Source: an uncultured Anaerolineae bacterium (GTDB lineage Bacteria; Chloroflexota; Anaerolineae; Anaerolineales; Villigracilaceae). Taken from it: DNA of 39,810 nucleotides. The stretch is from NCBI GenBank assembly GCA_903846015.1, contig CAIMZS010000251.1:1-39810 (forward strand). Reading direction: 5' to 3'. This document shows, one piece after another, positions 3,501-6,878 of the stretch (position 1 is its first letter; every line of letters begins with the position of its first letter). Under the pieces are notes generated by a model. It saw nothing but the letters and a program-made list of their open reading frames with translations. It was not told the DNA's origin and did not search any database. A program made the translations under genes and the position numbers.

Positions 3501-4190
3501 CTACTTGCCAATCGGAGTATGTCCAATCATCTCTGTAACATTGAAGTGGCGGATTCCCGCATTCGCGATGCGGGTTTTATCCTTGCTTTTAATCGCATCT
3601 ACGATCTCCGTATGTTCATGCAGTACCATTCCCATTTTATCTGGATTGAGGCGAATGAACATGAACATTTGTTTCCCTGTCATCTGGCAAAGCGCGTTGA
3701 TAAATACCGGGAACAGAGAATTGTGAGTAGATTCTGCGACCCGCAGATGAAACTCCAGATCAAAACGGCTAAATAAATCCACATCGTCTCTGCACTGTTC
3801 CATTTTGTCCAGCGCTTCATAAATGGATTGGAAATCTTCCACTGTGGCTTTTTCTGAAGCGATATCAAATACTGCCAGTTCAAGCCTGGTGCGCGCCTCC
3901 ACGATGTCAATAAAATTAGTGCGATAACTGTTTTGATTTTTAAGCAGCATGGTTTCCAGGCGATTTACCACTTTTTCATTTTCCAGGTTTGCCACATAAA
4001 TGCCTTTGCCGGGCTTTATTTCCAGTAAGCCTTTTTCTGATAACGAGCGCAAGGCTTCTCTGAGTACATTTCTACTGACACCATACTGTGCCGACAGTGT
4101 TCGCTCGGAGGGGAGCTTGTCCCCGGTAGACATATTCTGAATGGTTTTTTCGATTTGATTGGAAATATTGTCATACAAAAATTGTGGCAT
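3501..4190 (-). CDS. GntR-family transcriptional regulator, FadR/FCD subfamily
   Basis: The N-terminal winged helix-turn-helix is clear (KLPSERTLSAQYGVSRNVLREALRSL, then KGLLEIKPGKGIYV). It is followed by an alpha-helical FCD ligand domain with the typical acidic/His metal-site pattern (EARTRLEL, FDLEFH, LHEHTEIVDAI, IRHF). I choose ATG at 4190 (229 aa) because AGGA lies 6 nt upstream (aaaggatacttt-ATG). A GTG at 4241 would add 17 residues with no good ribosome binding site. FCD regulators usually sense small organic acids and control adjacent catabolic genes, but no such gene adjoins it here: pseB converges on it and a recombinase-like gene diverges from it. The effector is unknown. Confidence 0.85.
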   Translation of the reverse strand: MPQFLYDNISNQIEKTIQNMSTGDKLPSERTLSAQYGVSRNVLREALRSLSEKGLLEIKPGKGIYVANLENEKVVNRLETMLLKNQNSYRTNFIDIVEARTRLELAVFDIASEKATVEDFQSIYEALDKMEQCRDDVDLFSRFDLEFHLRVAESTHNSLFPVFINALCQMTGKQMFMFIRLNPDKMGMVLHEHTEIVDAIKSKDKTRIANAGIRHFNVTEMIGHTPIGK

Positions 4191-4584
4191 AAAGTATCCT
4201 TTGCGTGCCTGGAATTTATTGGCAAATTCCTGGTTAGTCACGGATCATTATCTACTTATGATGAATATAACGAAGGTGTGGCTTTATAACATGGTTTGAG
4301 CCGATTTATACCCTTTCCGGCATTTTAGAATTTGAAGCGAATTTAATCCGGCAGATTCATCCAAAATAAATATAACTAAAAATCCAATGAACGATTATAC
4401 GCTCGGAAAGTATTCTTGCGCAAGTAAACGGAATAACATACCGGACGATAACCGCCTGTAATCCACAAGTCTGCTGGGGAATAGTGACAGTTTCATTTCA
4501 ATTACGAATCAGCCTGTGTAAATTTTCTTCAAACGTGCTACACTATGCGCGTAGTGATTATTTTGTTATCGTATGGAGAAAAAT
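4191..4584. promoter_or_regulatory. Divergent intergenic region with palindrome 4541-4556
   Basis: This AT-rich spacer separates the divergent GntR regulator and the recombinase-like gene. CACTATGCGCGTAGTG at 4541-4556 is a 16-bp near-palindrome (one mismatched pair). It overlaps a plausible -10 (TACACT, about 4539-4544) with a TGTAAA -35 candidate 16 bp upstream, so it is placed like a repressor operator for the downstream gene. A looser TCAT-N9-ATGA repeat lies near 4245-4262, next to the regulator. Neither site matches an operator I can name. Confidence 0.4.
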
Positions 4585-5487
4585 ATGGCAGAGTCTGCTG
4601 CTGTCACTGCGCACATTACCGCAAATACTACTATTGCCCCAGCGGTTAATGCGTATGAAGTTTATTTAAATGACCAACATCGTTCGCCCTATACCGTCAA
4701 GGCATTTCTTTCAGATTTGCGCTTGATGACTAATTATTTCTCGCCGGATCGCGCTCTGGGCGATATTACCACCAATGATCTGAATAAGTTTTTTGAGTGG
4801 ATGCAGAAGGAAAGGGGTGTGCCTTGCAGCCCAAAAACATTAGCGCGCCGTATCACCACCATCAAGTCATTTTTTCGCTGGCTGTATAAAAACGCCACCC
4901 TGGTGCTTGATCCTGCCGAGCGGGTGGTGCAGCGTTCTGTGATGAGCCCGCTGCCTGAGATCCTGAGCGAAGATGAGATCCAGGCGATTACCCTGGCTGC
5001 GGATCGTTACCGCCGCAAGGCCAAACCTGATGCCCGTCCCTATACTTTGCTTTACCTGATGCTCACCACCGGCATGAAAAAAAGGGAATGCCTGGGTATT
5101 CACCTCAACCATCTCGACTTTCAATCACCCGACGGCCCGATCCTTTTTATCCGTTATGCCGCTCCCATCAGCCGTTACAAGGAGCGTAAACTGCCCCTGG
5201 CTGAAGAGTGGCTGCAGGCTTATGAAGAATACGTTGCGCAGTATAAGCCGACGGAGGCCTTGTTCCCCTGGTCTCCCCGCCGGTTGGAATATTTGCTGGA
5301 AGACATCGGCAAGGATGCCGGCCTCAACAAGCATCTGTCCTTTGACATGTGCCGTTGGACTTATGCGCTTTCGGAATACCGGCGCGGTGTTGAAAATGAT
5401 AGGATTCGTCAGAATCTGGGTGTTTCAAAAATCCAGTGGCGCGAATTAAACTTGAAGTTGAAGCAAATGGTGACAATCGCTGAATAA
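4585..5487 (+). CDS. Tyrosine-recombinase-fold protein, probably catalytically inactive
   Basis: The 300-residue product has a XerC/D-like layout: an N-terminal core-binding domain (YTVKAFLSDLRLM, then RRITTIKSFFRWLYKN, about residues 36-104) and a C-terminal catalytic-fold domain. Aligned by eye to E. coli XerD, five of six active-site residues differ: Arg148 is K165 (TTGMKK), Lys172 is S196, His244 is D254, His270 is V280, and the nucleophile Tyr279 is N289. The last 30 residues contain no tyrosine. Only Arg247 is kept (R257 in CRWTYAL). The frame is intact, so this looks like an exapted DNA-binding protein and not a fresh pseudogene. The ATG at 4585 has GGAG 6 nt upstream; an in-frame ATG at 4573 overlaps that site and is less likely. 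Confidence 0.8.
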   Translation: MAESAAVTAHITANTTIAPAVNAYEVYLNDQHRSPYTVKAFLSDLRLMTNYFSPDRALGDITTNDLNKFFEWMQKERGVPCSPKTLARRITTIKSFFRWLYKNATLVLDPAERVVQRSVMSPLPEILSEDEIQAITLAADRYRRKAKPDARPYTLLYLMLTTGMKKRECLGIHLNHLDFQSPDGPILFIRYAAPISRYKERKLPLAEEWLQAYEEYVAQYKPTEALFPWSPRRLEYLLEDIGKDAGLNKHLSFDMCRWTYALSEYRRGVENDRIRQNLGVSKIQWRELNLKLKQMVTIAE

Positions 5488-5490
5488 AAT

Positions 5491-5513
5491 GGGGCAGGTT
5501 ATCAACCTGCCCC
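5491..5513 (+). terminator. Bidirectional terminator between recombinase-like gene and tilS
   Basis: GGGGCAGGTT (5491-5500) and AACCTGCCCC (5504-5513) form a perfect 10-bp stem with an ATC loop. A GTTTTTA tail follows on the plus strand, and an A-rich run precedes it, giving an ATTTTATT tail on the minus strand. The tilS stop codon (TGA, 5502-5504) lies in the loop, so the last tilS codons form one arm of the hairpin. Confidence 0.9.
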
Positions 5514-6878
5514 GTTTTTATTCAGCTCAATTTTTATGATCCGGCGGGTCTTGTCTGTGATCTTAAATCGTTCTGACAGGCGCAGCCCGGCCACCCAGGC
5601 GATCTCAGCGCCGACGCACACCACCGGCCAGCCCGCCCGCATTCTCCGGGGGATTTTCAGGTTGATAAATAATTCGGCCAACTTTATTGTTTGGCGCGGC
5701 ATACCGAGCGGCTCAAACCTGTCGCCGCTGTGGTAGCCACGGATGTGTATCCGGTCAGTGGAAAGACCAGCATCCAGCCATGCAGTAAATCGTTGCGGGT
5801 TTTCAAGCACGTTGGTAAAACCCTGGTCCGTTATTTCCTCGGCGTTGAGCACCCATCCATTTCCGAGCGGCGTCTGTCCGCTGGTGATCTGGAATGGCGC
5901 GTTGATCTGGGGCCATTCGCACGGCAGTCCTTGCTCATCACAGGTCACATATAATTGATTGCCTTCCACCAGTGTTTTCATCCCACCAGCAATGTCAACG
6001 GGTTTGAGCGCGGCCGCTCTGCCGAGGGCCATAAAATCCACGTCTCTTTCACCCGGGTTAAGCAGATAGGCGGCTTTGCGGAATAGGTTCCGGCGCAGCG
6101 GTAGTGACAGCTCGCTCAGCGCTGGCAGGCTAAAGCAGATATAGCCCTGGCCCACGCTGCTGACGGTTTTTTGCCAGGCGCTCTCCACTACTTCCTCCAA
6201 TAATTGATAATCGCCCTGCAGTACCAGGGCTGTTTTCACCAAAGATTGGCGAATTTGCGGATTGTAGTGCTCCAGGGCGGGTAAAAGTTCGTGGCGCAGC
6301 TGGTTGCGAAAATACAGCGTGTCGGTATTGCTGGTGTCGATGCGCGCTTCCAGATTATGTTCGCGGCAGCAGGCTTCGGTGTCCGCGCGGGTCCAATCCA
6401 ACAAGGGGCGTGTGATCGGAATTTCAGTGTCAAAGGTCGGCAGGATCACGCGGGCGGACATCCCACGCAGACCGGAAAGCCCGGTGCCGCGCAGGATATG
6501 CATCAGCACAGTCTCGGCCTGGTCATCGGCAGTGTGCCCAACCGCCACTGCTTGCGCCCCGATTTTGCGAGCCTCGCGGAACAGGAAGCGGTAGCGCAGT
6601 TCGCGCGCGGCCTGTTCAATGGACAAGCGTTCATTGCGCGCATACGCTGCCACATCGGCAGCTGCGCTTACAAAAGGCAGCCCCAGTTTTTCGGCATAAT
6701 TTCGCACGAATTCCACGTCTGCATCTGCCTCGGGCCGCAGGCCGTGATTGAAAGTGGCGGCCACAAGCGGCAATCCCAGGCTATGGAGCGAACAGAGCAG
6801 GGCAAGCGAATCTGGCCCTCCTGAGACTCCCACCACGATGGGTTTGTCCGCTTCAAAATCGACCCATAATTTCTTCAT
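5502..6878 (-). CDS. tilS: tRNA(Ile)-lysidine synthase
   Basis: This 458-residue PP-loop ATPase modifies C34 of the CAU-anticodon tRNA-Ile with lysine, switching its decoding from AUG to AUA. The ATP-binding SGGPDS is at 19-24, followed by FNHGLR and VGHTADDQAETVLM(H)ILRGTGLSGL, all diagnostic for TilS. The C-terminal substrate-binding domain is present (GDRFEPLGM, KLAELFINLKIPRRMR). Length is typical. The ATG at 6878 lies 7 nt after the mce stop, so both are probably one transcript. Its 3' end is folded into the shared terminator. Confidence 0.95.
   Translation of the reverse strand: MKKLWVDFEADKPIVVGVSGGPDSLALLCSLHSLGLPLVAATFNHGLRPEADADVEFVRNYAEKLGLPFVSAAADVAAYARNERLSIEQAARELRYRFLFREARKIGAQAVAVGHTADDQAETVLMHILRGTGLSGLRGMSARVILPTFDTEIPITRPLLDWTRADTEACCREHNLEARIDTSNTDTLYFRNQLRHELLPALEHYNPQIRQSLVKTALVLQGDYQLLEEVVESAWQKTVSSVGQGYICFSLPALSELSLPLRRNLFRKAAYLLNPGERDVDFMALGRAAALKPVDIAGGMKTLVEGNQLYVTCDEQGLPCEWPQINAPFQITSGQTPLGNGWVLNAEEITDQGFTNVLENPQRFTAWLDAGLSTDRIHIRGYHSGDRFEPLGMPRQTIKLAELFINLKIPRRMRAGWPVVCVGAEIAWVAGLRLSERFKITDKTRRIIKIELNKNGAG

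Follow-up and report, generated by a model that had tools for sequence, protein, structure and literature searches.

What does a bacterium keep a tyrosine recombinase for once its active site has gone? The question is raised by a gene at positions 4585 to 5487 of the 39,810-nucleotide stretch of DNA analysed here (the window), from an uncultured Anaerolineae bacterium (GenBank assembly GCA_903846015.1, contig CAIMZS010000251.1). The gene encodes a protein of the XerC/D fold, here termed the dead Xer protein, which a sequence-only reading had described as an intact but catalytically dead recombinase, exapted for DNA binding and possibly controlling its own promoter. Our answer, given with somewhat more confidence than doubt, is that it is a chromosomal protein derived from an Xer ancestor, which has lost strand cleavage, has been kept for sequence-specific DNA binding and represses its own gene. 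The argument starts from a fold model, a single clade, a loss of catalytic residues, purifying selection and a conserved promoter element, each of which is established.

An intact gene without an active site

The gene, its domains and its ribosome binding site are as follows.
4585..5487, plus strand: coding sequence with stop, catalytically dead XerC/D-fold protein of 300 amino acids (open reading frame, domain searches, XerD alignment)
4648..4890, plus strand: N-terminal core-binding domain (Phage_int_SAM_1), residues 22-102 (Pfam 1.3e-12; helices in the predicted model)
4963..5433, plus strand: C-terminal former catalytic domain (Phage_integrase), residues 127-283 (Pfam 5.4e-12, alignment, model)
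4575..4579, plus strand: ribosome binding site GGAGA (sequence)

The 300-codon reading frame at 4585-5487 on the plus strand is unbroken, and both the intact frame and the ribosome binding site are as the sequence-only reading had them. In preference to an alternative in-frame ATG at 4573 we favour the start at 4585, because of the GGAGA at 4575-4579 and the lengths of most orthologues. The six catalytic positions of Escherichia coli XerD are R148, K172, H244, R247, H270 and Y279. When the window protein is aligned with E. coli XerD, XerC and 23 Xer/integrase sequences from related genomes, these positions read K165, S196, D254, R257, V280 and N289, the last of which sits just past the end of the Phage_integrase match. 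Five of the six residues are thus replaced, the C-terminal tyrosine included, and R257 (R-II) alone is retained, which bears out the claim that had first drawn attention to the gene. The equivalent residue set of XerH and Cre is tabulated in the available part of PMC10516654.

The same losses run through the family. Residues were counted in 101 dead-family rows (97 members and four deeper relatives) and in 25 Xer/integrase comparison rows. Dead-family members retain one catalytic residue (87/101) or two (14/101) and never more; R-II is present in all 101, K in 11, R-I in two, the tyrosine in one and either histidine in none. The full R-K-H-R-H-Y set, sought among homologues as evidence against the idea, occurs in 0 of the 101, and because relatives show the same residue losses a sequencing error is excluded. 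Among the comparison rows all six residues are found in 23, five in one and three in one. This last sequence (L148), otherwise Xer-like, has histidine II and the tyrosine replaced, and is perhaps another independent catalytic loss. The four deeper relatives (L120-L123), which come from outside the class and are placed at the base of the dead clade, carry a different set of changes, with T, K or S in place of R-I, H replaced by Q and H replaced by L.

The 66 orthologues scoring at least 400 share W258 without exception, at a position held by histidine in each of the 25 comparison rows. Equally invariant are K166 and E287, neither of which the comparison rows have, and Q284, which five of the 25 do have. 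In the former tyrosine column of these 66 no residue exceeds 27%. We infer from these alignments that strand cleavage and recombination have probably been lost.

A single clade under purifying selection

The class is taken here as Anaerolineae (phylum Chloroflexota). Of 61 genomes, counting that of the window, 55 have an orthologue scoring at least 190 bits, and a profile of the family matches at E ≤1e-25 in 336 of 396 sampled class genomes (207 of the 233 of good quality), each of which, some dozen apart, has a single match. Roughly seven of the 336 matches have E values above 1e-40, with some ordinary Xers among them; the example examined, in genome G095 (L142), has five of the six catalytic residues. 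Across a sample of the phylum 84 of 301 genomes match: 38 belong to the class, 33 to four families beyond it (E ≤1e-55), and the 13 weaker matches are a mixture of deeper dead relatives (L120-L123) with at least one ordinary Xer (L143). The window's genome has one copy of the gene; its other two matches are distant. In a tree of 66 rows, 37 dead and four deeper dead rows split from the 25 others, E. coli XerC and XerD among the latter, with branch support of 100, and the split remains (support 96) after removal of 48 columns around the catalytic positions; both trees came from rapid searches with no bootstrap, and long branches among the comparison rows drew a warning from the program.

Could the gene instead be the decaying integrase of a lost mobile element? 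The missing catalytic residues are what such a remnant might show. Open frames are conserved across the order and the class, however, with no stops in orthologues of the 61-genome set and one among the class matches listed. The ratio of non-synonymous to synonymous substitution rates (dN/dS) is 0.035-0.188 in 51 orthologue pairs (from 55 pairs above 80% identity, four being saturated), far below the value near 1 that would have spoken for decay; the window's gene is in none of these pairs, its closest relatives lying at or just under 80% identity. The gene is also surrounded by nine ordinary chromosomal genes, and viral contigs and phages yielded one weak match each. Decay is scarcely credible on this evidence, in agreement with the sequence-only reading, and we reject a pseudogene on account of the intact orthologues, class-wide matches and low dN/dS. 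Mobile-element cargo was likewise rejected, given the chromosomal neighbours and the two matches, one viral contig (29% identity, partial) and one phage record (24%).

A conserved element at the promoter

Two features upstream of the gene bear on its control.
4539..4544, plus strand: -10-like hexamer TACACT, with TG at 4536-4537 (sequence, orthologue comparison)
4543..4554, no strand: operator-like element CTATGCGCGTAG, core of the palindrome at 4541-4556, with half-site CTA[TC][AG]CG (orthologue upstream regions)

Upstream regions of orthologues that are otherwise dissimilar have in common TTGACA-N17-GCTAAACTATACGCAAAG (48 aligned). The window has a weak -35 and, as its -10 hexamer, TACACT, where most close orthologues have TAAACT. 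A generic sigma-70 scan of the region did not include the promoter of the dead Xer gene among its predictions; the assignment is supported by orthologue comparison. The near-palindrome at 4541-4556 noticed in the sequence-only reading is present and overlaps the -10-like hexamer.

The half-site CTA[TC][AG]CG, on either strand within 130 bp upstream, accompanies 52 of the 54 close orthologues, against the 2.5 that shuffles predict, and, as the family score falls, 6/11, 5/12 and 0/17; upstream sequence was sufficient in 94 of 95 orthologues. Fourteen of the 17 lowest-scoring orthologues lie outside the class, and for most of the 17 the assigned start codon is GTG or TTG, which may have caused their true promoters to be overlooked. 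At 19 loci the motif stands upstream of the dead Xer gene in 18, compared with 10 of 261 other open reading frames (Fisher p 2e-20), or 3 of 111 when only largely intergenic upstream regions are counted (Fisher p 5e-18); as the motif was derived from the same promoters, these values measure contrast and are not independent tests. The element lies beyond the -10 hexamer and overlaps it. Where there is a second forward copy, the distance is 13 bp in 16 of the 21 pairs, about the length of one recombinase arm in lox or FRT. The window carries the inverted form CTATGCGCGTAG (4543-4554), which in reverse complement is similar to TGCGCATAA, the left arm of E. coli dif (present in L177).

From this we infer DNA binding and repression along the following lines. 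The dead Xer protein would bind Xer-type half-sites, CTATRCG[C/A]A in Anaerolineales, which overlap the -10 and the early transcribed region of its own promoter; where two half-sites are present they lie head to tail, mostly 13 bp apart. The bound protein would repress its own gene. Autoregulation, which the sequence-only reading had thought possible, thus gains strong comparative support from the conserved promoter element.

The element might instead be bound by an unrelated regulator, with the dead Xer protein serving as a scaffold or regulating other genes. An inverted repeat of 12 bp with a central CG common to both arms would indeed suit a small dimeric regulator better than two tyrosine recombinase protomers. 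Against this, the neighbour upstream changes among relatives while the element stays with the dead Xer gene, and the element resembles Xer arms (E. coli dif TGCGCATAA and the arm of the A2 site described below), although likenesses so short can be chance. We rate an unrelated regulator as quite improbable.

Searches of whole genomes bear on how far the element extends beyond this promoter. A search of 16 genomes for paired copies in tandem gave 26 matches, and in every one of these genomes fewer than the reversed-pattern control; the three matches with a 6-nt gap all lie at the dead Xer promoter (G014, G018, G266). On these counts the element is tied to the dead Xer gene and not to a dispersed set so arranged. 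Inverted operator pairs (6-bp core, up to two mismatches) were below the reversed-pattern control in 12 of 12 genomes, among the matches listed. The 11-mer AAACTATACGC gave 0-3 matches per genome in 12 genomes against 0-7 for the control, four of the 15 lying at the dead Xer promoter.

These counts also bear on a chromosome-architecture factor, which would bind terminus sites without catalysis, for example to unload SMC, with autoregulation secondary. That matching class genomes nearly all have a single match accords with a core chromosome role, and XerD is reported to unload SMC near the terminus in Bacillus subtilis, as cited in the available part of PMC8357415. In the genomes tested, tandem and inverted operator-like sites do not rise above control, which tells against such a factor, though its targets need not resemble the operator. 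We consider it unlikely.

A probably active Xer in related genomes

A separate tyrosine recombinase, family A2, occurs in 45 of the 61 relatives; the window's own draft genome gave no A2 match at E 1e-60. All six catalytic residues are present in the five A2 proteins checked. At four of the five loci a dif-like palindrome stands just upstream of the A2 promoter, with the sequence TTTCGATAA-GTATTA-TTATCGAAA or one very like it. The exact pattern occurs once per genome in six of 61 genomes, beside the A2 gene in four of the six, and related forms are found in seven of 20 A2 upstream regions together with one variant (one genome overlaps the earlier five loci).
A2-upstream dif-like palindrome: L165, L167, L168, L172; L180-L182, L186, L187, L189, L192 (L195 is the variant)

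The arm symmetry, 9-10 of 11, is also attained by shuffles, and the site is supported instead by a shared sequence at a shared place. The arrangement is like that of single-recombinase systems in which the site adjoins the gene. Chromosome dimer resolution is probably carried out by A2 where it is present, which would leave the dead Xer protein free for another task. A pattern for canonical dif was found in two of 18 genomes, with one match each. One of these is the window's own genome (CGCATAACGCCGTATTATGTCAA, G000:C642:4708-4730, L179), where it may be the dif site of the genome or foreign DNA in the draft assembly.

The dead Xer protein could also be a non-catalytic partner of A2, binding one arm of a dif-like site and controlling the active subunit. 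A2 is widespread among the relatives, intact where checked and in several cases preceded by a dif-like palindrome, and by eye its arm TTTCGATAAG agrees at 7 of 10 positions with TTTCGTATAG, the operator half-site in reverse complement. The A2 site, however, is a near-symmetric palindrome, such as one recombinase acting alone would be expected to have; the tree separates the two proteins widely, and the search of the window's draft genome at the threshold given above found no A2. We regard a partnership as very doubtful.

Relationship to known recombinases and repressors

The structure prediction proposed as a check places the self-repressing protein that we favour among proteins of both kinds, its model matching XerA and XerH and also the dead-recombinase repressors SroF and MrpR/YopR. 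With XerA, XerC, XerD and XerH it has in common the two-domain fold (core-binding and catalytic domains) and detectable sequence homology; unlike them it lacks five of the six catalytic residues, and it scores far below the NCBIfam cut-offs. The best match, XerA_Arch, reaches 93.6 bits against a cut-off of 220, far below it, and neither XerD (86 against 329.6) nor XerC (81 against 335.15) is reached. MrpR/YopR, the master repressor of B. subtilis prophage SPbeta (PDB 8A0A, 8BJ6, 8BPZ), is like the dead Xer protein in having a recombinase fold with catalytic residues lost, and the mechanism proposed here would be MrpR-like. MrpR is prophage-borne, however, whereas the dead Xer gene is chromosomal and common to most of a bacterial class. 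According to the available parts of its description, MrpR has ten binding peaks at phage promoters and, out of seven residues listed there, retains E, K and Y, whereas the dead family retains R-II. A profile search with the dead family at E 0.1 did not have MrpR among its matches; the match between the two is one of fold. SroF, the repressor of phage phi3T (PDB 9RD5, 9RGL; compared by entry titles), is phage-encoded and 9-10% identical; no paper on it was found in the open-licence literature searched.

Chain 14 of PDB 9I5V (401 residues), labelled RaiA, matches the Xer profile at residues 7-187, which suggests an Xer-RaiA fusion or a mislabelled chain. It aligns as an ordinary Xer N-terminal part does; no paper on it was found in the open-licence literature searched.

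Genomic surroundings

5491..5513, no strand: probable terminator hairpin between the dead Xer gene and tilS (sequence, terminator scan)

This hairpin has 10 pairs and T-rich flanks on both sides, which fits the terminator claimed in the sequence-only reading. The scan assigned the hairpin to the minus strand, and terminator-like sites in the region (3 against 1.7, sd 1.6, in shuffles) give no excess by themselves. The gene tilS (5502-6878, minus strand) is convergent with the dead Xer gene, as it also is in part of the order. Upstream in the window, at 3501-4241 on the opposite strand, is a gene for a GntR/FadR-type regulator. In part of the order a cluster of genes for a histidine kinase, a LysM protein and a LytR-CpsA-Psr protein lies upstream instead.
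Kinase/LysM/LytR-CpsA-Psr cluster: L033:4664-9418, with equivalents in L034, L035, L039-L041, L043, L046 and L140
A conserved operon function was rejected, as the neighbours vary in other groups.

A recombinase fold probably put to other use

Exaptation to a DNA-binding role, as first proposed from the sequence, is the best-supported account of the dead Xer protein, given the family-wide catalytic loss, the selection and the fold. Conservation so broad argues that the protein controls or organises something besides its own promoter. More speculatively, and as an idea that we would sooner doubt than assert, a single capture of the fold by an ancestor of several Chloroflexota classes may have produced a self-regulated core protein that binds DNA and acts globally, as a master regulator or in organising the nucleoid or the terminus. 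Such a protein would be a chromosomal, class-wide counterpart of MrpR and SroF.

Among the titles and abstract openings listed from the open-licence literature searched on inactive tyrosine recombinases, Anaerolineae with tyrosine recombinases, or XerD-like proteins and scpA, none describes the dead Xer family, nor do the available parts of PMC3025954 and PMC8371274. The authors of the MrpR study expect, in the available part of PMC10516654, that tyrosine recombinases have probably been recruited as transcription factors more widely than had been anticipated; here is a large chromosomal family, with a defined candidate binding site, on which that expectation can be examined. The family is set apart from the probable true Xer/dif system of the same bacteria, and the annotation 'integrase' or 'XerC/D' would seem to misname what is likely to be a core DNA-binding protein in hundreds of genomes.
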